Shown here one piece after another: positions 27,926 through 54,280 of a stretch of 54,329 bases of DNA; position 1 is the first letter of the stretch; each line of letters begins with the position of its first letter. The notes below the pieces were generated by a model. It did no database searches. It was not told where the DNA came from and was given only the letters and a program-made list of their open reading frames with translations. Location: NCBI GenBank assembly GCA_012523295.1, contig JAAYIT010000296.1:1-54329 (forward strand), given 5' to 3'. The DNA comes from Porphyromonadaceae bacterium (GTDB lineage: Bacteria; Bacteroidota; Bacteroidia; Bacteroidales; Paludibacteraceae). The position numbers and the translations under genes were made by a program.

Positions 27926-29287
27926 ATGATGAGGAACAAAGTAAATTTAGTTGTTGTGCTTTTGATGGTTTTGGCGTTTTCGAATGCTCAGAATCCCATT
28001 ATTCAGACGATGTACACAGCTGATCCCGCGCCTTTGGTTTACAATGGAAAGCTATACCTGTACACCACCCACGATGAAGATAATTCGTCCTGGTTTGTAA
28101 TGGATAATTGGAAACTGTACACGACTACCGATATGGTAAACTGGACGGATCACGGCGTGATTCTTTCTTATACCGATTTTAGCTGGGCAAAAGGCGATGC
28201 ATGGGCGCCACAATGCATAGAGAGAGGTAGAAAATTCTATATGTACGTACCTGTAATTTCGAAAGAAAACAACAGACCGGCAATTGGAGTTGCTGTCGCT
28301 GATTCGCCATACGGTCCCTTTATTGATCCGCTTGGGAAGCCTCTTGTTCAAAGCGGACACGGTGATATTGATCCTTCGGTTTTTATCGACGATGACGGAC
28401 AAGCTTACCTGTACTGGGGAAATCCAAATTGCTACTACGTGGAACTTAATGAGGATATGATTACTTTCAAAGGGGAGATAGTAAGTATTCCAATGAATGA
28501 AGAAGCTTTTGGAAAACGTGAGGGAAATGTAAAAGAACGCCCCACTTTATATGAAGAAGCTCCCTGGCTATATAAAAGAAACGGACTTTACTATTTGCTT
28601 TGGGCAGGAGGTCCCATACCTGAGCATTTAGGATATTCTACAAGTAATAGTCCCAAAGGACCTTGGAAATATCAGGGAGTACTGATGCCGACAGAAGGCA
28701 GAAGCTTTACAAATCACCCCGGGATTGTTGATTATAAAGGTAAAACTTATCTTTTTTATCACAATGGAGCTTTACCCGGAGGGCACGGTTTTAATCGCTC
28801 GGTCTGTGTTGACGAAGTGAAATTCAATAATGACGGAACAATTCAGCCTATGAAGATGACTGCCGGAATTCAAAAAGGACTTGAATATTTAAATCCGTAC
28901 AGGAAAAACGAAGCTGAAACAATAGCGTTTTCCGAAGGAGTGAAAGCATCTCAAAATAAAGAAGTTGGTGTATTCATCAATGCCATGCAAAACAACGCCT
29001 ATTCGATGGTAAAAGGAGTTGACTTTGGAGATCAGGGAGCAACTCGATTTATGGCTCGCGTAGGGTCAACCATTAATGGAGGCGTAACAATGGAAGTTCG
29101 ACTCGGCGGTAAGGATGGGAAATTAATCGGCACATTGAAAGTACCGATTACGGGTGGTGATAATCGTTGGGAAGTAGTGAGAACTGAAATAGAAAAAGTA
29201 ACCGGAGTACACGATTTGTACTTTATTTACAAAGCGGATAAACCGGGAAGAATTATGTTTTTTGATTATTGGCTGTTTACAAAATAA
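27926..29287 (+). CDS. GH43 arabinofuranosidase with C-terminal CBM6
   Basis: I choose ATG 27926 (or 27929) rather than the upstream TTG at 27893, because it gives a clean signal peptide ([22 protein letters not shown]) and avoids overlap with the previous gene. The GH43 domain has base Asp33 (YTADPAPL), the middle Asp in [11 protein letters not shown] and the acid Glu in [16 protein letters not shown]6-type domain covers about the last 130 residues ([51 protein letters not shown]). This two-domain form is typical of arabinoxylan arabinofuranohydrolases and related xylosidases in Bacteroidota. It sits 13 bases after the preceding GH43 and is surely in the same transcript. Confidence 0.88.
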
Positions 29288-29296
29288 TTGAAATAA

Positions 29297-30853
29297 ATGA
29301 AAGATATATTCAAAAATATTATGCTGCTTTTAATTGTAATGCTTTCTGTTACAGGCATTACTGCGCAGCAAGCGGAGAACCCGATTGTTTTCGCCGATGT
29401 GCCGGACATGTCCATTATCAGAGTGGGAAATACTTACTACATGAGCAGCACTACCATGCATATGAGTCCCGGAGTTCCTATCATGAAATCTGTCGATTTG
29501 GTAAACTGGGAATTGGTGAGCTACTGCTACGATACCTTAGATGATGTCGATGCGCTGAATTTAGAAAATGGGAAAAACGCCTACGGAGGCGGATCTTGGG
29601 CAAGCTGTATCCGCTATGTAAATGACACATACTATGTTTCTACCTTTGCCGGAACGACAGGTACAACCTACATTTATTCCACTAAAGACATTGAAAATGG
29701 GCCTTGGAAAGTGAATAAATTCAAACCATCATATCACGATCATACCATTTTTTTCGATGACGATGGGAAAATTTATATGATTTGGGGTGTAGGAAAGCTA
29801 CGGATGGTGGAGTTGAAAAAAGACTTTTCAGGTATAATAGAAGGAACGGAAAGGGTGCTTATTGAAAATGCGAGTGCACCCGCAGGTGATAATATTATGC
29901 TCCCTTCGGAGGGTTCGCAACTTTTCAAAGTAAATGGAAAATACTACCTGTTCAATATCACCTGGCCAAGAAACGATATGCGTAAAGTTGTGATTCACAG
30001 GGCGGATAATATTACCGGTCCTTATGAAGGTCGCCTTTCACTTGAAGATCTGGGAGTAGCTCAGGGAGGATTAATTGATACGCCCAATGGCGATTGGTAC
30101 GCTTATCTTTTCAGAGATTTCGGTTCGGTAGGTCGAATTCCGTACTTAGTTCCCGTGAAATGGGAAAATGGATGGCCTGTGTTAGGAGAAAATGGGAAAG
30201 TGCCCATGAAGCTGAATTTACCGCAGAGTAAAGGATTGATTCCCGGGATAGTAAATTCGGATAACTTTAAACGAAAAAAAACAGATTCAAAGCTTCCTCT
30301 CGTTTGGCAGTGGAATCACAATCCTGACAACTTAAATTGGAGTGTTAATGGTAAAAAAGGTTTTCTCAGAATAACTACCGGACGAATTGATAATGATATT
30401 CTCTCTGCAAAAAACATACTTACGCAACGTACAATCGGGCCAAAATGCGTAGGAGAAACAAAAATAAATGTTTCGAAAATGAAAGAAGGCGATATCGCGG
30501 GTCTTATACTGCTTCAGGCAAAATACGGTTATGTGGGAGTAAAATTTGAAAATGGAAGAAAATATATTGTAATGGTAAATACCGAATCTGAAAAATCGGA
30601 GGAGGTTGTAAGATTGCCGTTGAAAGGAAAGAAAGTTTATTTCAAAGCCACTTGCGATTTCACATCCATGCGTGATACAGCCGACTTTTATTACAGTTTA
30701 GATGGGAAAAAGTGGGAAAAATTAGGTACTCCGCTCAAAATGAGATATACACTGCCGCATTTTATGGGCTATCGGTACGGGTTGTTTAATTACGCAACAC
30801 AAACTACCGGCGGATATGTCGATTTTGATTATTTCAAAATAGATTATAACTAA
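29297..30853 (+). CDS. GH43 xylosidase/arabinofuranosidase with beta-sandwich C-terminus
   Basis: A 518-aa protein with a signal peptide ending ITAQQ (residue 24). The GH43 fold starts at ENPIVFADVPDMSIIRVGNTYYM with likely base Asp37; HDHTIFFDDDGKIYMIWG and LPSEGSQLFKVNGKYYLF carry the other acidic positions. From about residue 318 a concanavalin-like beta-xylosidase C-terminal domain (GH43_C2 type) follows, ending YVDFDYFKIDYN. It begins 9 bases after the previous GH43. Expected to remove arabinose or xylose from oligosaccharides in the periplasm; the choice between the two is not settled by sequence. Confidence 0.88.
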   Translation: MKDIFKNIMLLLIVMLSVTGITAQQAENPIVFADVPDMSIIRVGNTYYMSSTTMHMSPGVPIMKSVDLVNWELVSYCYDTLDDVDALNLENGKNAYGGGSWASCIRYVNDTYYVSTFAGTTGTTYIYSTKDIENGPWKVNKFKPSYHDHTIFFDDDGKIYMIWGVGKLRMVELKKDFSGIIEGTERVLIENASAPAGDNIMLPSEGSQLFKVNGKYYLFNITWPRNDMRKVVIHRADNITGPYEGRLSLEDLGVAQGGLIDTPNGDWYAYLFRDFGSVGRIPYLVPVKWENGWPVLGENGKVPMKLNLPQSKGLIPGIVNSDNFKRKKTDSKLPLVWQWNHNPDNLNWSVNGKKGFLRITTGRIDNDILSAKNILTQRTIGPKCVGETKINVSKMKEGDIAGLILLQAKYGYVGVKFENGRKYIVMVNTESEKSEEVVRLPLKGKKVYFKATCDFTSMRDTADFYYSLDGKKWEKLGTPLKMRYTLPHFMGYRYGLFNYATQTTGGYVDFDYFKIDYN

Positions 30854-30964
30854 ACTCCCGATGAATAAACCAAATCAGAGTTAATATGTAAATCCGGATC
30901 AAAACGGATAGGCATAAATAATTATACTTTTTAGACATCAATATTTAACAAAACACAATATTTT

Positions 30965-31060
30965 ATGAAACAGCCATTTAAGAGAAATCTTAAACCCAAG
31001 AGAATGGTTAATGGCGTGTTCCATACGACCTTAGTGTAAAAAATAAATTTTAATCGTATG
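30965..31060 (+). repeat. Leader repeat, copy 1 (before GH43)
   Basis: A 96-base element starting ATGAAACAGCCATTTAAG and ending on the start codon of the next gene (31058-31060). Its first 51 bases are identical to copy 3, 19 kb away. It contains GCCATT (30973-30978) / AATGGC (31010-31015), an inner stem TTTAAGA-GAAA-TCTTAAA (30977-30994) with a GNRA-type loop, and CATACGA (31022-31028) / TCGTATG (31054-31060), whose right arm contains the start codon. A 24-codon ORF runs from 30965 to a TAA at 31037-31039. Sequence upstream of 30965 is not shared with other copies. Function unknown; a 5'-UTR control element is my inference. Confidence 0.8.
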
Positions 31061-32785
31061 AAAAACACACAGATTAAGCTAATGGCCTATTTTGCATTCG
31101 CGTGTTTCGCATTTGTAAATTTTTCAGCATTACATGCTCAGAAAAAATCTGCTAAAAACAACCCGGTATTCACAAATTATATTTATCAAGGACAAGATAA
31201 AGTATATGATAATAATCCATTGAAATCCGATGAATTTTACAATCCTATACTTCAAGGATGCTATCCCGATCCATCAATTACCCGGAAAGGAAATGATTAT
31301 TTTCTCGTAAACTCCACGTTCGCGATGTTTCCCGGCGTACCTATTTTTCATTCAAATGACTTAGTAAACTGGACGCAAATCGGACATGTGTTGGATCGAA
31401 AATCCCAGCTTAAAGTATTTGATACCGGTATCAGTGCGGGAATTTATGCTCCGGTAATCCGTTACAATCCGTACAATGAGACTTTCTATATGATTACTAC
31501 GCAGTTTGCCGGTGATATTAATAATATGGTGGTAAAAACCAAAGATCCTTTCAAAGGTTGGAGTGAGGTTTACAAACTAAAATTTAACGGGATTGATCCT
31601 TCGCTATTCTTTGATGACAACGGTAAAGCGTATGTTGTTCACAACGATGCGCCGGATCCCGGGAAAGAGCTTTACAACGGACACCGGGTTATCAAAATAT
31701 GGGATTATGATATTGAAAATGACCAGGTTATAGCCGGAACAGATAAGATTATCGTAGATGGAGGTGTAGATATTTCCAAAAAACCAATTTGGATTGAAGC
31801 GCCTCATATTTATAAGAGAAACGGAATATACTACCTGATGTGTGCCGAAGGCGGGACCGGAGATTGGCACAGCGAAGTAATCTTTACAAGCGATAATCCG
31901 CGAGGACCTTATGTGCCTGCTCCAAACAATCCGATTTTATCCCAACGCTACCTGAATGAAAATCGTCCGAATAAGGTAGAATGGGCCGGACATGCCGATT
32001 TGGTAGAAGGACCTGATGGTAAGTATTACGGAGTTTTCTTGGCGGTTCGTCCAAATGAGAAAAACAGGGTAAATACCGGGCGTGAAACTTTTATTCTGCC
32101 CGTGGATTGGAGTGGAAAATATCCGGTGTTCGAGAATGGACTTGTTCCTATGGAGCCGAAACTGAAAATGCCGAAGGGAGTAGAAAATAAAACAGGAAAA
32201 GAAGGATTTTTTCATAACGGAAATTTCACTTTTAAGGATGATTTTACAGCTGTCAAATTAGATTATCGTTGGATTGGTATGCGAGGACCGATTGAAGACT
32301 TTATTAAAACATCAAAAAACGGGTTAAGTATCAATCCTTTCCCGGTGAATATCAAGGCAGTAGCTCCGACATCAGCTGTGTTTCAGCGCCAACAACATAT
32401 TAGTTTTACGGCAACTGTAACAATGGATTTTACTCCAAAATCAGAAAAAGATTTAGCCGGAATTTCTTGCTACCAAAGTGAAAATTTTAACTATGTATTC
32501 GGCGTAACCAAAAAAGACAAAGATTATTATATCGTTCTCCAACGTACCGAAAAAGGAGAATCAAAAATTATTTCAAGCAGTAAAATCGACCTGAAAAAAC
32601 CTGTACAACTTCAGGTCTCAGCCCAAGGTGATGATTATAAATTCAACTATTCGGTTGATGGCTTGAATTTTACGAACTTAGGAGGTATCGTTTCGGGTGA
32701 TATTCTTTCCACCAACGTGGCAGGCGGATTTACAGGAAATTTAATAGGACTTTATGCAACAAGCGCCAACGATGCTAAGCCATAA
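31058..32785 (+). CDS. GH43 xylosidase/arabinofuranosidase with GH43_C2 domain
   Basis: A 575-aa protein with signal peptide ending ALHAQ (residue 28). The GH43 domain begins at FYNPILQGCYPDPSITRKGNDYFL, with likely base Asp71, middle Asp in FNGIDPSLFFDDNGK and acid Glu in WIEAPHIYKRNGIYYLM. From about residue 395 a concanavalin-like C-terminal domain follows. This is the classic beta-xylosidase/arabinofuranosidase layout. The gene stands behind a leader repeat and a 204-base gap, so it may be controlled separately from the three GH43 genes upstream. Confidence 0.9.
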   Translation: MKNTQIKLMAYFAFACFAFVNFSALHAQKKSAKNNPVFTNYIYQGQDKVYDNNPLKSDEFYNPILQGCYPDPSITRKGNDYFLVNSTFAMFPGVPIFHSNDLVNWTQIGHVLDRKSQLKVFDTGISAGIYAPVIRYNPYNETFYMITTQFAGDINNMVVKTKDPFKGWSEVYKLKFNGIDPSLFFDDNGKAYVVHNDAPDPGKELYNGHRVIKIWDYDIENDQVIAGTDKIIVDGGVDISKKPIWIEAPHIYKRNGIYYLMCAEGGTGDWHSEVIFTSDNPRGPYVPAPNNPILSQRYLNENRPNKVEWAGHADLVEGPDGKYYGVFLAVRPNEKNRVNTGRETFILPVDWSGKYPVFENGLVPMEPKLKMPKGVENKTGKEGFFHNGNFTFKDDFTAVKLDYRWIGMRGPIEDFIKTSKNGLSINPFPVNIKAVAPTSAVFQRQQHISFTATVTMDFTPKSEKDLAGISCYQSENFNYVFGVTKKDKDYYIVLQRTEKGESKIISSSKIDLKKPVQLQVSAQGDDYKFNYSVDGLNFTNLGGIVSGDILSTNVAGGFTGNLIGLYATSANDAKP

Positions 32786-32853
32786 TTAGCTATGAGAGAC
32801 TAAACTAAAACATGATCATTAAAGATTAATCTTAAATTCAAACAAATAAAAAT

Positions 32854-34074
32854 ATGTACAAGAGAAATATTATTACAAGCGTTATTCTGTTGATGTTCTT
32901 TTCTATAAGTGTAAATGGGCAAAACATTTCTAAAACAACAAAAAAGTTGAAAGCACTGAAAGATGTCTATGAAGAAAAATTTTTGATTGGAACGGCAAGT
33001 GATTTAAGTGGATTTACCGAAGCTGAATTGGAAAATATTAAAACACATTACAATGTTATCACTCCGGAAAACAGCATGAAACCTCAGTCACTTCACCCAT
33101 CACAAGGTAAGTACAACTTTAGAACTGTTGATTCTTTGGTTGACTGGTCTCAGAAAAATGGATTAAAAGTTTGGGGACACACATTGCTGTGGCATGCTCA
33201 AACAGCACCTTGGTTTTTCCAAGCTAATGCCGAATTGGAAGAAGCACCAAGACCGAGACCTGCTTTTCAGCCCAATCAGCCCAGAGCTCCGCGAGATCCC
33301 AATGCTCCTCGCCCAAGCATGACCGAAATGTGGTTGAGAAGCGTTAAAGGACCTTTTGCATGTCGCGAAGTTGCTCTTGAACGATTAAAAAACCACATTA
33401 TGACTGTGGCAGGAAGATATAAAGGCCGTGTTATCGGCTGGGATGTGGCTAATGAATCGATTGCCGACGGAGGCGATGGTACAACAGAGAATTTACGTGA
33501 TTTCAGCTGGTACAAAATCGTTGGACCTGATGTTTTGACTTTGGCTTTCAAATGGGCGCACGAGGCAGATCCTGATGCAGAATTGTATTATAACGACTAC
33601 AATATTGAACAGGGTGCAGTGGAGAACAAAGGCAAACACGCCAGTTCGATGTTGCTTCTCAAACGTCTTATCGCAGAAGGCGCTCCAATCACCGGTGTAG
33701 GTATCCAAGGGCATTGGCATTTGGATACAAACTTAGAAGATGTTGAAAAAGCGATTGAGAATTATGCCTCACTTGGATTGAGGGTGTCGATTACCGAACT
33801 TGATGTAACAGCAACGGGTAACAACAGCGGTGCTTTCGATGTGAATACAGGCAGAAGAGAAATTCCGGCTGAAAACTATCTGCAACAGGCTGAAGTTTAC
33901 AAAAAATTGTTTGAGATTTTTATGCGTCATTCAGACGTAATTGACCGTGTAACGTTTTGGGGAGTAAGCGATACCCGTTCGTGGCGTCGAGGACAAGATG
34001 CACTCTTATTTGACGGTCAGTTGCAACCAAAACCTGCTTTTAACGGTGTAATTGAAGCAAGTAAACGAAAATAA
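32854..34074 (+). CDS. GH10 endo-xylanase with a Pro/Arg-rich loop
   Basis: A 406-aa single-domain GH10 with a signal peptide ending ISVNGQ (residue 23). The motifs are TPENSMKPQSLHP, WGHTLLWHAQ, acid/base Glu201 (DVANES), YYNDYNIE, GIQGHWHL and nucleophile Glu315 (ITELDVT). Between WFFQ and the rest of the barrel there is an extra segment of about 32 residues (127-158) made mostly of Pro, Arg and Ala. This is where the first GH10 of the locus carries its CBMs. No lipobox is present, so it is likely periplasmic or secreted. A palindrome AAGATTAATCTT (32822-32833) lies in its short leader. Confidence 0.93.
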   Translation: MYKRNIITSVILLMFFSISVNGQNISKTTKKLKALKDVYEEKFLIGTASDLSGFTEAELENIKTHYNVITPENSMKPQSLHPSQGKYNFRTVDSLVDWSQKNGLKVWGHTLLWHAQTAPWFFQANAELEEAPRPRPAFQPNQPRAPRDPNAPRPSMTEMWLRSVKGPFACREVALERLKNHIMTVAGRYKGRVIGWDVANESIADGGDGTTENLRDFSWYKIVGPDVLTLAFKWAHEADPDAELYYNDYNIEQGAVENKGKHASSMLLLKRLIAEGAPITGVGIQGHWHLDTNLEDVEKAIENYASLGLRVSITELDVTATGNNSGAFDVNTGRREIPAENYLQQAEVYKKLFEIFMRHSDVIDRVTFWGVSDTRSWRRGQDALLFDGQLQPKPAFNGVIEASKRK

Positions 34075-34179
34075 TTCTCTAAAAAACTTCATTCATTGAT
34101 TAAATTAAGGATTCTCAGTGAATTAAGTGATGTTTCTTCATTTTTCAGGTAAACTGTTATAATCTTAATACGAAAACAC

Positions 34180-39170
<4,991 letters not shown>

Positions 39171-39184
39171 ACTATTTCTCTTAT

Positions 39185-39298
39185 TTGAAACAGCCATTTA
39201 TGATAAGTCTTAAACCTAAGGAGATGATAAATGGCGTGTTTCATACGACTTTAATTTTAAAAATAAATTTTAATCGTATGAATCGTATGAATCGTATG
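39185..39298 (+). repeat. Leader repeat, copy 2, with triplicated start-codon 9-mer
   Basis: The copy begins TTGAAACAGCCATTTATG and reaches the first ATG at 39278-39280. The outer stem is longer here: GCCATTTAT (39193-39201) / ATAAATGGC (39227-39235), 9 bp. The second inverted repeat is also longer: TTCATACGA (39240-39248) / TCGTATGAA (39274-39282). The 9-mer AATCGTATG is then repeated three times in tandem (39272-39298), giving three in-frame ATGs. The short ORF of copies 1 and 3 is not terminated here but runs into the downstream gene. Confidence 0.8.
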
Positions 39299-40540
39299 AA
39301 AATGAAATTGGAAAAAGTCATTAAACCGCTTGTCGTACTACTTGTTGCAGTCGTTTTGCAAAGTTGCTTTTTTTCAAAATCCGGCTTCAGTGAAAACTCA
39401 AACTGGGTTGGAACCTGGAGCACAGCGCCTCAATTAGTAGAGCCGCACAATATGCCGCCACAACCGGGTCTGAGCGATAATACAATCAGACAAATTGTGC
39501 AGGTATCAATAGGCGGTGAAATTCTGCGATTCAAATTTTCAAATGCATTTAGCAATAGTCCGGTAGAAATAAAATCGGTTGCAATTGCTGAGTCCACTGA
39601 GAATAGTTCAATTAATATCTTAACTCAAGAAATTCTGAAATTTAACAACAATCAGAATGCTACAATAAATCCCGGCGAGGAACTTTTTTCCGATCCTGTA
39701 AAGTTCAAGTTGAAACCCGGTTCAAAGCTGGCAATTACGATTTACTTCGGAAAAACAGCTCCGGATGTGACAGGTCATCCCGGTTCTCGTACTACCTCTT
39801 ACATTTTGGCAGGAAATAACATTGAGTCTGCCGACTTTTCGGATGCCATCAAAACCGATCACTGGTATTCGATTAGCGGAATAGATGTGTTGACAAGAAA
39901 AGATTCGAAAGCCATTGCTGTTTTGGGAAATTCAATCACGGACGGACGGGGTTCGGGAACAAACATGCAAAATCGGTGGCCTGATATTCTTGCCGGTAGG
40001 TTATTGAAAAATGAAAAAACAAGTAACATCGGAGTTTTGAATCTGGGAATCGGTGGGAATTGCGTGCTGCGAGGAGGATTAGGACCTACTGCTCTTGAGC
40101 GTTTTGATAGGGATATTCTTTCTCAAAGCAGCGTTCAGTGGTTGATTATTCTGGAAGGAATAAACGATATTGGCACCATAAATTCGGAAAATGAGGCAGA
40201 AAGTATCGCTAAAGAATTAATCAGTGCTTACGATGAAATGATAAAAAAAGCCCACGAAAAAAACATCCTCGTTTATGGCGCCACAATTCTCCCGTTTGCT
40301 AAATCATTTTACGATACTCCACACCGTCAAAAGAGTAGGGATATTGTAAATGAGTGGATTAGAAACTCCGGACGATTTGATGCGGTGATTGATTTTGATG
40401 AAATCATGCGAAATCCGAATGATGAGAAAACTATTTTGCCGGATATGCACGACGGTGATTTCCTTCACCCGAATGAAGCCGGATACAGACGCATGGGAGA
40501 GGGTGTCGAACTGAAGTTATTTGAAGCACCAAACCTCTAA
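39278..40540 (+). CDS. XynE-like SGNH/GDSL esterase lipoprotein
   Basis: The frame is open back to a TTG at 39185, but that stretch is the leader repeat. By analogy with copies 1 and 3 the real start is one of three ATGs at 39278, 39287 or 39296. The product then has a lipoprotein signal with lipobox LQSC. A beta-sandwich N-domain (NWVGTWSTAPQLVEP ... IRQIVQVSIGGEILRFKFSN) precedes an SGNH hydrolase domain with Ser219 in VLGNSITDG, a block III-like GINDIG and the catalytic DGDFLHPNEAGY. The whole resembles the XynE-like group, named after a Prevotella esterase. It probably deacetylates xylan fragments. Substrate is inferred. Confidence 0.87.
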   Translation: MNRMNRMKMKLEKVIKPLVVLLVAVVLQSCFFSKSGFSENSNWVGTWSTAPQLVEPHNMPPQPGLSDNTIRQIVQVSIGGEILRFKFSNAFSNSPVEIKSVAIAESTENSSINILTQEILKFNNNQNATINPGEELFSDPVKFKLKPGSKLAITIYFGKTAPDVTGHPGSRTTSYILAGNNIESADFSDAIKTDHWYSISGIDVLTRKDSKAIAVLGNSITDGRGSGTNMQNRWPDILAGRLLKNEKTSNIGVLNLGIGGNCVLRGGLGPTALERFDRDILSQSSVQWLIILEGINDIGTINSENEAESIAKELISAYDEMIKKAHEKNILVYGATILPFAKSFYDTPHRQKSRDIVNEWIRNSGRFDAVIDFDEIMRNPNDEKTILPDMHDGDFLHPNEAGYRRMGEGVELKLFEAPNL

Positions 40541-40594
40541 GGTGAGCTCTATTAGAGCATTTTACACTTAATTGACAAAAAGTAAATTGATTAA

Positions 40595-42328
<1,734 letters not shown>

Positions 42329-42685
42329 AATGACAAGTCCATTCCAATGTAGTTATGTTGAAATGGATTGTAAATTGTTTTCTTAGATTGAATATCTAAT
42401 AACACAGAGGAAATGAAATGTCGAAGCAGGTGATTATTTCTGCGACTTATCACTTGCTAATCGCACTGAGAAAATCTGAAATAAAAATGTTCGGTTTCGA
42501 ACTTTTTTAGTAAAACTTCAATGGCAAAAATAGGGCTTAAAGACTTGGACTCAATTGTTTAAGTTTTGAGTTTTAATAGAAAAAAATTGATCGTAAAAAT
42601 ATTTCTGTAAGTAACACATTACTCCATATTAAAATGGAATAAACAGCACAGCTATACAGAATAAAGTTAAAAAATTATAAGTACT
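42329..42685 (+). promoter_or_regulatory. 357-base gap with a terminator-like hairpin
   Basis: No gene is visible. GTTCG (42489-42493) / CGAAC (42498-42502) with loop GTTT, flanked by an A-run on the left and six T on the right, is a good intrinsic terminator candidate. It lies about 160 bases after the CE6-CE1 stop. A second 6-bp inverted repeat ACTCAA / TTGAGT follows near 42549-42571. The CE15 gene therefore probably has its own promoter in the last 110 bases, though I see no clean TAnnTTTG. Confidence 0.5.
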
Positions 42686-45085
42686 ATGAGAAATCGAATT
42701 GCTTTAAGAAAATACCTTCTTGTAGCATCGCTTTGTCTGCTCAGTTCTACACTATCAGCAGAAGTTCCGTATGTCTATTCAGTAGAGAATACAGGAGCAG
42801 AATGTACTTTGCCGATACTTCCGGAGCCTGATGAATTGCCATCGATTATCCGACTTCCCAATCCTTTTGAGTTTTCAAATGGCGGTAAGTTTGTCGCGGA
42901 TTTAGTAGATTGGCGGTGCCGTAGAAACGAAATAAAAGCCGAAATAGAGAACTATGAAATAGGAGTAAAACCCGATAGACCGTCTGACATCACTGCTACA
43001 TTCGAGTCTAATGTTTTGACAGTCATAATAAAAGAAAATGGTGAAACTATTACTTTGACTTCTAATGTTACTTTACCTGAATCCGGTTCGGGTCTGTTAC
43101 CGGTAGTAATAGGGATAGGTGGTCCAAGCGGAAGTTTGCCGGCAGATCTTTTTACGAATTGTATAAAAATAGCATTTTCGCCCGCGCAAATCGCGGTAGA
43201 TGGTCAAGCCCGAAGTGGTGCGTTTTACAGCATGTATCCTAATTCGAATAGCGCGCATTACGCGGCTTGGTCTTGGGGAGTAAGCAGGATTCTTGATGGG
43301 TTGGAAATTGTCCAGTCAACACTGAACGCGGACTTGAAACGAATTGGACTTACAGGTTGTTCTCGCTGGGGTAAATTAGCTTTGTTTGGTGGAGCATTTG
43401 ATGAAAGAATCGCTCTTACTATTGCTCAAGAACCCGGTGGAGGTGGGGCGGCAGCTTGGCGTGTTTCAGAAACGATTGGCGCGGTAGAAAAAATCGATAA
43501 TACAGATTATTCCTGGTTTATGCCCTCGATGCGGGATAATTTCCGAGGAAGAGTAGATCGTTTGCCACATGATCACCATGAATTACTCGCTATGATAGCG
43601 CCACGCGCTTTATTAATTTTGGGTAATGATGGTTGGACTTGGCTCGCAGATCCATCCGGATACGTATCTTCAATGGCAGCTCGTGAAGTTTGGAAAAAAC
43701 TTGGCGTATCAGATCGGATGGGATTTGATTTCACGGGAGGACATAACCATTGTCAAGTTGCAGCTAGTCAACGAGATGCTTGTGATAAATTTATTAAACG
43801 TTTTTTGCTAAATGACAATACCGTTAATACCGAAATTTTGACCTCACCGTATCAGGATATTAATTATCAATTCTGGATTAGTGAATGGGCTGATGTTACA
43901 GTACCGCCGATTGCTGAAAAGAGTAATTATTTTGAACCGGAGACTTCTGATTGTGTGTCTTTAGGAGATCATTTCGAAATTGGAAATGATACAGACGCTT
44001 CCGGTGGAAAATATGTAACTATCGCATCGGGAAAAGGTAGCGCGCAAAATCCACCGAGTGCTTCCAATCAGCTGAATATCAATTTCTTTGTTGATAATCA
44101 TGAAATGGGCTTTGTGTATGTTCGAGTTAAAAGTTTGAATGCGAATTCTAATTCATTCCTGGCAAAAATTGATAACGATGATTTTACAATGATTGGTAGT
44201 GCAGATACAGCCGGTGAGTGGAAATGGATACCTGTGATTGCTGACAGACCAATGATTGCCGGAAATCATACACTCACGATCGATATGGCGGAGGAGGGGA
44301 TAAAATTAGACCGTGTTTTAATAACAAACACGCGAGAATCTGTACCGACTACAGGTTTTGGTGGAACAGAAACAAATTGCGCTCCTCCAATAAAATATAC
44401 AAAACTGGACTTTGAAAATGGGAATATCGACAACTGGACTAAGCAAAATCCGGGTGGAGGAATTACGATAACTCAAGAGGATAAATACCAGGGAGAATAT
44501 GCATTGAAAATGGTAAATGCTTCTGGTTCAAGTGCATGGAGTGTGCAAGCATTTACGCCTGAGATAGAAATTATTTCCGGTCATGTTTACACGGTATCAT
44601 TTTGGATTCGTGCGGTTGATGGCGGTGGTAGAGGAAGAATATCGACTACCGGTGCAGGCTCATTGGGAAATACCTACTGGAGCGATTTTCAAGTTGATAA
44701 CGAATGGAAGCAAATTATATATAATAACTTGATTGCCAATGGATCAAGTGTGAAACTTGCTTTTGATATGGGCTATGTTCCAAACAAAACATATTACATT
44801 GATGACATAGTTTTCAATGACACCAATGTACCGGATGGTACCGGAATTAAACGAATTCTGACTGATATTGATATTCATCCAAATCCGGTAAAAGAGAAAT
44901 TAAATATCGGCATTTCCGGATGTTCTGTAGTCGATTTGTATTCACTTTCAGGTGCCAAAGTGTTGAGTATGAATGCGGTTGGTTCCGAAATCTCCATTGA
45001 TATGAAGAATAAGCCAAGTGGAATTTACATTCTGCATGTTCATACAGATAACAATCTATTTACTAAGAAAATTGTCAAGAATTAA
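42686..45085 (+). CDS. CE15 glucuronoyl esterase with CBMs and a T9SS sorting domain
   Basis: A 799-aa protein with a signal peptide ending LSAE (residue 25). The CE15 domain spans about 45-380 with nucleophile Ser226 in TGCSRWGK (the GCSRxGK motif), acidic residue in AQEPGGGG and His in GGHNHCQ. A CBM35/CBM6-like domain follows (about 414-555), then a CBM4/9-type sandwich (573-715, ENGNIDNW ... YVPNKTYYIDD) and a C-terminal Por/T9SS sorting domain (about 720-799, HPNPVKEKLNI ... GIYILHV). It should cleave ester bonds between lignin and the glucuronic acid side groups of xylan, outside the cell. Confidence 0.93.
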   Translation: MRNRIALRKYLLVASLCLLSSTLSAEVPYVYSVENTGAECTLPILPEPDELPSIIRLPNPFEFSNGGKFVADLVDWRCRRNEIKAEIENYEIGVKPDRPSDITATFESNVLTVIIKENGETITLTSNVTLPESGSGLLPVVIGIGGPSGSLPADLFTNCIKIAFSPAQIAVDGQARSGAFYSMYPNSNSAHYAAWSWGVSRILDGLEIVQSTLNADLKRIGLTGCSRWGKLALFGGAFDERIALTIAQEPGGGGAAAWRVSETIGAVEKIDNTDYSWFMPSMRDNFRGRVDRLPHDHHELLAMIAPRALLILGNDGWTWLADPSGYVSSMAAREVWKKLGVSDRMGFDFTGGHNHCQVAASQRDACDKFIKRFLLNDNTVNTEILTSPYQDINYQFWISEWADVTVPPIAEKSNYFEPETSDCVSLGDHFEIGNDTDASGGKYVTIASGKGSAQNPPSASNQLNINFFVDNHEMGFVYVRVKSLNANSNSFLAKIDNDDFTMIGSADTAGEWKWIPVIADRPMIAGNHTLTIDMAEEGIKLDRVLITNTRESVPTTGFGGTETNCAPPIKYTKLDFENGNIDNWTKQNPGGGITITQEDKYQGEYALKMVNASGSSAWSVQAFTPEIEIISGHVYTVSFWIRAVDGGGRGRISTTGAGSLGNTYWSDFQVDNEWKQIIYNNLIANGSSVKLAFDMGYVPNKTYYIDDIVFNDTNVPDGTGIKRILTDIDIHPNPVKEKLNIGISGCSVVDLYSLSGAKVLSMNAVGSEISIDMKNKPSGIYILHVHTDNNLFTKKIVKN

Positions 45086-50046: not shown

Positions 50047-50140
50047 ATGAAACAGCCATTTAAGAGAAATCTTAAACCCAAGAGAATGGTTAATGGCATG
50101 TTCCTTATGACATTAATTTAAAATATATTATAATCGTATG
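50047..50140 (+). repeat. Leader repeat, copy 3 (before GH10)
   Basis: A 94-base copy. Its first 51 bases (50047-50097) are identical to copy 1. GCCATT (50055-50060) / AATGGC (50092-50097) and TTTAAGA-GAAA-TCTTAAA (50059-50076) are kept, and the element ends TAATCGTATG on the start codon of the GH10. The left arm facing TCGTATG has drifted to CTTATGA, which leaves one mismatch and one G-T pair. A 24-codon ORF closes with TAA at 50119-50121. Confidence 0.8.
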
Positions 50141-51268
50141 AAAAAAAAGAATTTCTTTATTCTTGTTGCATTTGCAGTAGGAATTATGAGTTGCAGTTCA
50201 AAAGCTGTCGAAAACGAGAATTTAAAAGATGCCTTTGAGGGCAAGTTTCTAATCGGTACTGCATTGAATGAAGCGCAAATCACAGGCGCTGATTCCAACA
50301 GTGTAAAATTGGTCAAAGAGCAGTTTAATTCCATCACCGCGGAAAATTGTATGAAAAGTGGTGAACTTCAGCCTGAAGAGGGAAAGTTCTATTTTGATTT
50401 AGCCGACCAATTCATCAAGTTTGGATTAGACAACAATATGTATATCATTGGTCACACGCTGATTTGGCACTCACAGGCTCCGTCATGGTTTTTTACAGAT
50501 TCAAACGGAAAAGAGGTCTCTCGTGAAGTGTTGATTGAAAGGATGAAAACGCACATTCACACCGTTGTGGGCAGGTACAAAGGACAAGTGAAAGGTTGGG
50601 ATGTGTTAAATGAGGCGATTGAAGATGACGGATCATGGCGAAAAACAAAATTCTACAACATTATCGGTGAAGAATACATCGAACTTGCGTTCCAGTTTGC
50701 ACACGAAGCGGATCCGGAAGCAGATTTGTACTACAATGACTACTCGATGGCTCATGAAGGACGTAGAAATACAGTGGTGAAGATGGTAAATAACCTAAAA
50801 AGCAAAGGAATAAAAATTGACGGTGTGGGAATGCAGGGACACATGGATCTTGTGTTTCCAAAGTTAGAAGACTTCGAAACCAGTTTGACTGCATTTGCAG
50901 AGACAGGTGTGAAAGTGATGATTACCGAATTAGACGTAACCGTACTGCCTCGTCCGAGTAGAAATCTTGGTGCTGAGATTTCACAAAGTTATGAATATCA
51001 GCAAAAACTAAATCCGTATGCGGAAGGTTTGCCGGACTCGGTATCTACAGAATTAAATAACCGCTACTTAGATATATTTAAATTATTCTTAAAACATCAA
51101 GATAAAATCGAACGTGTTACCCTATGGGGCGTTACCGATAATCAATCCTGGAGAAATGATTGGCCTGTTGGCGGCAGAACGGATTACGCGCTTATATTCG
51201 ATAGAGATTTCCAACCAAAACCGGTTGTAGGAATGCTTATTGAAGAGGCCGCGAAGGTAACTCAATAG
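50138..51268 (+). CDS. Single-domain GH10 endo-xylanase lipoprotein
   Basis: A 376-aa lipoprotein (lipobox IMSC, residue 19) holding just the GH10 barrel. Motifs: [39 protein letters not shown], acid/base Glu159 (DVLNEA), [17 protein letters not shown] and nucleophile Glu264 (ITELDVT), ending with [26 protein letters not shown]. Unlike the second GH10 there is no loop insertion. It may act as a periplasmic-facing or surface lipoprotein on xylo-oligosaccharides imported or produced by the longer xylanases. Confidence 0.94.
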
Positions 51269-54192: not shown

Positions 54193-54280
54193 ATGAAACA
54201 GCCATTTAAGATAAATCTCAAGCCCAAGAAAAATGATTGATGGCGTGTTCCATACGACCTAAATATAAAGAATGGTATTA
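54193..54280 (+). repeat. Leader repeat, copy 4 (degenerate, at the window edge)
   Basis: It begins ATGAAACAGCCATTTAAG one base after the GH10 stop codon. GCCATT (54201-54206) faces GATGGC (54239-54244), still pairing through a G-T wobble. CATACGA (54251-54257) is kept, but the TCGTATG arm is replaced by AATGGTATTA (54271-54280) with no start codon. A net one-base insertion in the run after CCCAAG breaks the short ORF (it stops after 15 codons). The right end is approximate. Confidence 0.65.

Follow-up and report, generated by a model that had tools for sequence, protein, structure and literature searches.

The window, i.e. the whole 54,329-nt stretch of DNA analyzed in this study, harbors three complete copies and one further copy of a short repeated sequence, and the neighborhood of the three complete copies was found to be rich in GH43, GH10, and esterase genes. 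The copies, the genes that begin at them, and the pairing segments of copy 1 are as follows.

30965 to 30967, plus strand: first ATG of copy 1, with left junction TATG^AAAC (^ marks the junction); considered, on the pattern of empty sites found in other genomes, to be the original GH43 start codon
30968 to 31060, plus strand: inserted element of copy 1, AAACAGCC...TCGTATG, 93 bp; boundaries placed on the sequence by analogy with other sites
30965 to 30978, plus strand: left arm of hairpin 1, ATGAAACAGCCATT (sequence, DNA fold, and RNA fold)
31010 to 31024, plus strand: right arm of hairpin 1, AATGGCGTGTTCCAT, whose CAT is common with stem 2 (sequence and folds)
31018 to 31028, plus strand: internal segment GTTCCATACGA, a putative guide (sequence and covariation)
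31022 to 31028, plus strand: left arm of stem 2, CATACGA (sequence and covariation)
31054 to 31060, plus strand: right arm of stem 2, TCGTATG, the right end of the element with the GH43 start codon (sequence and covariation)
31058 to 32785, plus strand: GH43 gene, 575 aa, beginning at the terminal ATG of the element (PF04616, E 3e-72)
39188 to 39280, plus strand: copy 2, with left junction TTG at 39185-39187 and right ATG at 39278-39280
39278 to 40540, plus strand: GDSL-lipase gene, beginning at the terminal ATG of copy 2 (PF13472, E 3e-26)
50050 to 50140, plus strand: copy 3, with left ATG at 50047-50049 and terminal ATG at 50138-50140
50138 to 51268, plus strand: GH10 xylanase gene, beginning at the terminal ATG of copy 3 (PF00331, E 2e-100)
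54193 to 54273, plus strand: copy 4, directly 3' of the stop codon of a second GH10 gene, with its right end missing or replaced

The sequence-only reading of this DNA had claimed that an inverted repeat ahead of the GH43 gene includes its start codon, and direct inspection bore this out: CATACGA (31022-31028) is complementary to TCGTATG (31054-31060), which carries the ATG (31058-31060) of the 575-aa GH43 ORF. The pairings that it had described in the other two complete copies were likewise confirmed, namely, 9 bp in copy 2 between TTCATACGA (39240-39248) and TCGTATGAA at the GDSL-lipase start, and a weakened pairing in copy 3 between CTTATGA (50104-50110) and TCGTATG with five Watson–Crick pairs and one G-T. 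At 39275-39298, the GDSL-lipase gene was seen to open with three in-frame TCGTATGAA units, exactly at the end of copy 2. An Rfam search of positions 29000-43500 gave no matches up to an E-value of 1, and a covariance model that we built from an alignment of 35 diverse copies matched copy 1 at 30965-31060 with 76.7 bits.

Copy 1 contains two stems: hairpin 1, in which ATGAAAC..GC.. pairs with ..GC..GTTCCAT, and stem 2, in which CATACGA pairs with TCGTATG. Since the CAT is common to both, they are mutually exclusive at full length. Both stems were formed in the predicted DNA fold (z -3.9); in the predicted RNA fold (z -2.8), the shared CAT was paired with the upstream AUG and not with the start of the gene. 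In addition, GTTCCATACGA can pair, apart from one mismatch, with the TCGTATG^AAAC that results when the two ends are joined.

To survey the pairing, a detector was used that requires GTT[CT]CAT plus the next 3 nt, and the complement of these three bases, followed by ATG, farther downstream. It gave 268 matches in 279 loci versus 12, 4, and 8 for three false pairings, these matches being mostly copies of one family, with some loci overlapping, and therefore not independent. A guide-free pattern search of seven congeneric genomes, which applied no pairing filter, returned 10 matches; among the nine with the right end displayed (L319 excepted), seven were fully complementary, with the guide types CTG/CAG, GTG/CAC, and ACG/CGT, and two had one mismatch at the three variable bases. 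In the 35-copy alignment, the first variable pair of stem 2 was AU in 28 copies, CG in 2, GC in 2, UA in 1, and other in 2, and the second was CG in 22, UA in 10, UG in 2, and other in 1. Cells changed on both sides numbered 17 against a shuffle mean of 6.4, with none of 500 shuffles as high, and sliding the partner abolished this signal. The pairs changed on both sides (3) and the further pair types (7) lay within the shuffle range (210/500 and 53/500, respectively). The CAT/ATG pairs are uninformative in this respect because they are invariant, the seventh pair was unpaired in 19 of the 35 copies, and the overall proportion paired (91%) is inflated since most of the copies had been pre-filtered for two to three of four pairs. 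Hairpin 1 was less regular in its inner part (62% of cells paired), partly because the pairing registers of the two subfamilies are offset by one base. Covariation over more copies, which had been proposed as the check on the stem, was thus found in the arms of stem 2, and its absence, named as the outcome that would speak against the stem, was not observed.

The stem is the right end of a repeated element rather than a leader peculiar to the three genes. With 40 of 190 candidates scored, the 106-bp element used as a query gave at least 59 matches in the source genome, of which a few were short fragments; the covariance model found at least 92 copies there, all 92 places scored being matches. 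By the same model, 15 of 46 genomes were carriers, including G020 with 37 copies and G066 with 32, and the single-contig congener G002 had none. An exact pattern was present in 1 of 395 genomes sampled evenly over the phylum, namely the source genome, and in at least 95 named stretches, one titled Bacillota and the others bearing Bacteroidota titles; in IMG/VR viral contigs it had no matches, and a phage vehicle was rejected accordingly. The Bacillota-titled contig, L204, carries an element close to the source-genome subfamily and is probably a misbinned Bacteroidales contig. Carriers among the matches listed were Dysgonomonadaceae, Paludibacter, Proteiniphilum, Massilibacteroides, Marinilabilia, Prolixibacteraceae, Tannerella, and Lentimicrobiaceae.

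The form of the family is roughly TATGAAACGAGCATG-loop-CATGCGAGTTCCATACGACCTT-A-rich-ACGTATGAAA, with ATGAAACAGCCAT/ATGGCGTGTTCCAT in the source-genome subfamily, and an internally deleted version of 44 bp was found in L187. Head-to-tail arrays are present, in which copies overlap by about 7 bases and the joints read CGTATG^AAACAG, as expected of reinsertion into the element's own end. In L094 and L109, source-genome copies abut the start of a different subfamily (ATGAAACCCACATG), such that subfamilies seem to stack at one site. In the Proteiniphilum MAGs L131, L147, and L165, a second repeat of about 80 bp (ACTAAAGTTAGACTATTCC...TTAACGGAATA) lies within the right arm of the element. The genes behind the element are unrelated to each other: besides the xylan enzymes in the window, they include what we take, by eye from the translations, to be ispF, polA, accC, pdxB, and serC.

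To compare filled sites with empty ones, 12 insertion sites from Paludibacter-like MAGs were searched, with their flanks joined, in five genomes, and an element-free ortholog was found for 8 of the 12. In the first case, from two Paludibacter-like MAGs, L210 has the element and L134 lacks it, the protein of the gene being 95% identical. Nine alignments of six genes, with 72-90% DNA identity (L149 with L285; L151 with L293 and L302; L210 with L280 and L281; L175 with L290; L187 with L307 and L308; L188 with L286), have the native 5' flank up to the first ATG of the element and the coding sequence onward from its last ATG. These flanks were compared between species, not strains; the match was close in most of the nine alignments and poor in L151/L302 (15-base gap) and L187/L308 (72%). 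In two further genes, L169 (with L355 and L356) and L162 (with L354), the element-free starts agree, with 12-14 matching flank bases. By these comparisons, an element of about 93 bp was inserted at the start codon and regenerated it. Since the base after the ATG differs between the filled and empty site in two pairs (L149/L285 and L187/L307), the exact right cut is not fixed and possibly lies one or more bases later. As for the remaining 4 sites, a porG-like site of L210 was occupied in other species too, and L189, L195, and L211 had no match elsewhere.

At this porG-like start (L210:2850-2960; L134, minus strand, before 1669; L280/L301), three close species carry the element between conserved flanks. 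Their elements are of different subtypes with different internal sequences, two of them standing in tandem in L134, which suggests repeated insertion or replacement, i.e. turnover. The shared position could also be taken to favor a vertically inherited leader lost in many lineages, with concerted evolution homogenizing the copies within each genome. The nine element-free orthologs, in each of which a normal 5' UTR runs up to the point at which the element starts, argue against this, as does ispF, at whose start the detector found the element in 1 of 29 loci (that of the source genome) and not in the other 28, one of which ends before the start; one Paludibacter additionally carries it there. 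We thus consider vertical descent with loss very unlikely.

The following counts of junctions, ORFs, start bias, short ORFs, and promoters used a set of elements that had been required to have paired ends and AAAC at the left; this filter favors intact copies, and the set retains a few false rows (e.g., L144:2761, L203:2473, and L279:2696). The junction consensus was T-ATG-AAA, cut as TATG^AAA, identical to the element's own joined ends. At right junctions of the source genome (n = 74), A occurred at +4/+5/+6 in 100/92/86%, versus 58-71/57-60/46-48% at other predicted starts, although this A-rich stretch could partly belong to the element because the right cut could lie later. At left junctions (n = 70), T occurred at -1 in 83%, versus 37-46% at other predicted starts. 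The background starts (35 in the source genome and 284 in named loci) were first ATGs of long ORFs, not curated ones. Because TATGAAA, the target, also forms the core of the junction between the element's own ends (CGTATG^AAAC), the tandem arrays are explained as well.

ORFs of 60 aa or longer were shown to begin at the terminal ATG in 67 of 83 non-tandem copies of the source genome and of relatives' loci, and in 64 of 74 copies of named genomes, versus 21% of all ATGs in the loci; among 27 copies with no long ORF at this ATG, 17 have the start of a sense ORF no more than 200 nt away. The ratio of start to intergenic positions was 36:9 for elements versus 42:51 for free TATGAAA in the same named loci (p 1e-4), and 36:11 versus 38:72 with another ORF cut-off (p 2e-6), a test that is conservative because in several of the "non-start" copies the gene is truncated by the end of the locus. 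Two copies were labeled as lying inside a sense ORF and 3-5 as antisense; among the latter, L144 and L203 are false hits, and in L170, L172, and L200 the copy opens an ORF that is truncated at the end of the locus. This excess at start codons could arise from selection after insertion or from targeting coupled to expression, and may thus reflect targeting dependent on transcription or translation, with mRNA or an R-loop as the target. Movement by RNA copying, in which start codons in mRNA are the target and reverse transcription follows, would explain directly both the start-codon preference and the excess over equal intergenic TATGAAA sites, and no clear antisense insertion was seen among the 3-5 so labeled; selection after insertion, however, explains the same bias, and we regard RNA copying as improbable.

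The arms of the stem lie in a region that is probably transcribed. TAnnTTTG is the promoter motif of Bacteroidetes; it was found in the 90 nt preceding the first ATG in 35 of 150 copies, where shuffling predicts 7.8, and in 3 of 150 it falls inside the element. Because the motif sits upstream and rarely inside the element, both stem arms are probably present in the mRNA. The old start codon now opens a short ORF, which is 24 aa long in most source-genome copies, is open in 84 of 90 of them (17% by shuffling), and ends 17-19 nt before the gene in 62 of 90 and 4 nt before it in 12 of 90. Among the 77 named-genome copies, 38 meet a stop in this frame within 30 nt, 14 stay open up to the gene, and 29 read MKRA-stop. 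In the 74 source-genome copies aligning without gaps, the three codon positions vary equally (5.97, 6.13, and 5.78 bits), and a role of the peptide is unlikely because the short ORF has no codon-position signature. Its openness is so explained by shared descent and structure, not by coding.

These data bear on the proposal of the sequence-only reading that the stem buries the start codon and acts as a switch. The stem itself stood, as it exists, includes the start codon, and covaries; the burial did not find support in the predicted RNA fold, which pairs the CAT with the upstream AUG. The upstream short ORF failed as a general feature, the 24-aa frame not being general across the family and showing no coding conservation. 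A leader that regulates in cis, its stem covering the start codon until a factor, a small RNA, or translation of the short ORF opens it, would accord with the covariation of the stem, TAnnTTTG upstream of both arms in those 35 of 150 copies, the close ending of the source-genome short ORF before the gene, and the enrichment of insertions at starts. The CAT, being complementary to either AUG, would also permit two exclusive folds, although it is the upstream one that is predicted: the minimum free energy RNA fold lacks pairing of the gene's start with CATACGA. The element is moreover mobile and stands before unrelated genes, and the early stops in 38 of 77 named copies and the lack of codon-position bias in the source genome also count against such a leader, which we judge unlikely. 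An equally good or better account of the pairing is that it serves the ends of the element itself. Nevertheless, insertion may alter the translation of the gene through the structured leader and short ORF as a putative effect.

We therefore favor, with good though not full confidence, a short mobile element of Bacteroidales, about 93 bp long and devoid of ORFs, that inserts at TATG^AAA, mostly at start codons, and rebuilds the ATG. The family, its copy number, its insertion at start codons, its target consensus, and the covariation of its internal segment with its right end are all established by comparison of sequences. After an insertion, the native 5' UTR would end at the old ATG, followed by the element in the order AAAC, hairpin with variable loop, GTTYCATACGA, A-rich linker, and CGTATG. 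The last three bases of the element would constitute the new ATG running into the gene, and the protein would stay intact because this terminal ATG continues into the coding sequence. GTTYCATACGA is the reverse complement of the CGTATG^AAAC junction, with one mismatch when Y is C, and can therefore pair with either junction as well as with the target; its complements are target TATG plus AAAC on the left and TCGTATG plus AAA on the right. We infer a single-strand mechanism, in which GTTYCATACGA would pair in single-stranded DNA with both ends and the target, and an enzyme acting in trans would cut and join at ATG^A. As a side effect, every insertion would equip the gene with structured leader sequence and, in many cases, with a short ORF ahead of it.

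By analogy, GTTYCATACGA most likely works like the guide sequences of the IS200/IS605 type, although the overlap of the left target with the guide comprises the invariant CAT/ATG part only, which counts against this model. PATEs are non-autonomous derivatives of the IS200/IS605 family. In the available sections of PMC6006769, IS200/IS605 elements are described as having the target flank and the element end recognized via internal guide sequences by a single-strand transposase, and the present element has a hairpin and a covarying complementary segment, which may act as a guide. As in that family, insertion occurs 3' of a fixed short target, TATG^AAA, without target loss, as seen in the nine alignments of six genes and the three weaker ones of two genes, subject to the position of the right cut. 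The differences are that the element has one hairpin instead of two, that its target is a start codon, and that no Y1 transposase is linked to it or significantly co-occurs with it.

REP elements, as far as described in parts of PMC6006769 and PMC3733652, are short, ORF-less, high-copy hairpin repeats with a guide tetranucleotide at the foot of the hairpin. The present element is also short, ORF-less, high-copy, and hairpin-forming. It differs from the REP/RAYT system outlined there in lacking a GTAG/CGTC end tag, in showing no inverted dimers, in lying mostly at gene starts where REPs lie between genes, and in having no flanking RAYT gene. GTAG/CGTC was absent as a conserved end tag from the 35-copy alignment, CGTC occurring only in variants reading CATACGTCC. 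BrickBuilt and other MITEs of Porphyromonas gingivalis, according to the sections of PMC4596501 that were available, combine terminal inverted repeats with target duplications that vary in length, and are likewise repeats in a Bacteroidales genome; those sections describe no start-codon insertion, and the 35-copy alignment contained no terminal inverted repeats, only the ATG(AAA) core being repeated at the element ends. Leader peptides with reinitiation, in the part of PMC4833913 that treats them, resemble the element in that a short ORF ends near the start codon, and differ in that the short ORF of the element rides on a mobile element and is not conserved across the family. No description of the element was found in the literature searched, the coverage of which excluded subscription papers and preprints.

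As for the enzyme, Y1 transposase (PF01797) was represented by six genes in the source genome and by matches in 34 of the 46 genomes. None of 35 loci around Y1 genes contained the element by the detector, nor accordingly a RAYT gene flanked by it; one more distant copy with a mismatched guide lies about 1.2 kb upstream in L113, before pdxB. A relaxed stem scan gave 12 matches in 6 of the 35 loci, which we judged by eye to be palindromes unrelated to the element or matches in coding sequence. A Y1 gene scoring 66 bits or more was present in 10 of the 15 carriers and in 14 of the 31 other genomes (p 0.22, no significant co-occurrence), and in 12 of 15 versus 15 of 31 when partial hits in G009, G066, and G065 were included (p 0.058). 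Y1 transposases are thus not adjacent to the element, and the association is at most weak. Among the loci examined, no full-length relative with the same ends encoded a Y1 transposase, and a check of right ends lacking a nearby left arm gave no autonomous copy with an ORF between the arms. With neither adjacency nor significant co-occurrence, the Y1 transposase was kept as a candidate mobilizer only. Palindromic repeats were observed near Y1-type genes in L234:890-1000 (ACCATAATGCCG...) and L249:1870-1950 (ACCATTTACCCCTCG...), which are possibly REP-like substrates of those genes. Y1 subclass 1.2 is characterized, in the available part of Quentin et al. (2018; PMC6006769), as a group of Bacteroidetes and Cyanobacteria, with the motif Y---Q--HH, a low copy number, and generally no typical IS200 ends. 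This motif was found in the source-genome proteins of L113 and L114, in an extraction by motif that missed 18 of the 35 proteins, and subclass 1.2 is on this ground a candidate partner only.

An integron-like cassette was also weighed, in which the hairpin would be an attC-like site moved by an integron integrase. The architecture of attC consists of terminal AAC/GTT boxes, an unpaired GA/GA spacer, a second box, and a variable loop, and the element resembles it in this regard and in its head-to-tail arrays. However, the attC core consensus RYYYAAC/GTTRRRY is not matched, and the junctions lie at ATG and not at G^TT. The integron integrase TIGR02249 was above the cut-off in 1 of 46 genomes, one that lacks the element, and in none of the 15 carriers, by which the cassette is largely refuted; we deem it extremely unlikely. 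Other tyrosine recombinases gave matches below the cut-off in nearly all genomes and are conceivable mobilizers.

Taken further, the mobile element at TATG^AAA might, as a tentative reading that we put at somewhat less than even, represent a new kind of element, which would home to start codons via an 11-nt segment pairing with its own ends and the target TATGAAA, rebuild the initiation codon, and so spread with little harm to many genes of a genome while giving each a shared structured leader. The usual transposons break genes or land between them. This element would escape the cost of breaking genes because its ends and its target are the start codon itself: it would add new leader sequence and leave a fresh start codon at its far end each time. 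Given the covariation between the guide-like segment and the right end, recognition may be changeable by base pairing. Such an element could rewrite 5' leaders genome-wide and would offer a route by which common translational control may be wired into unrelated genes.
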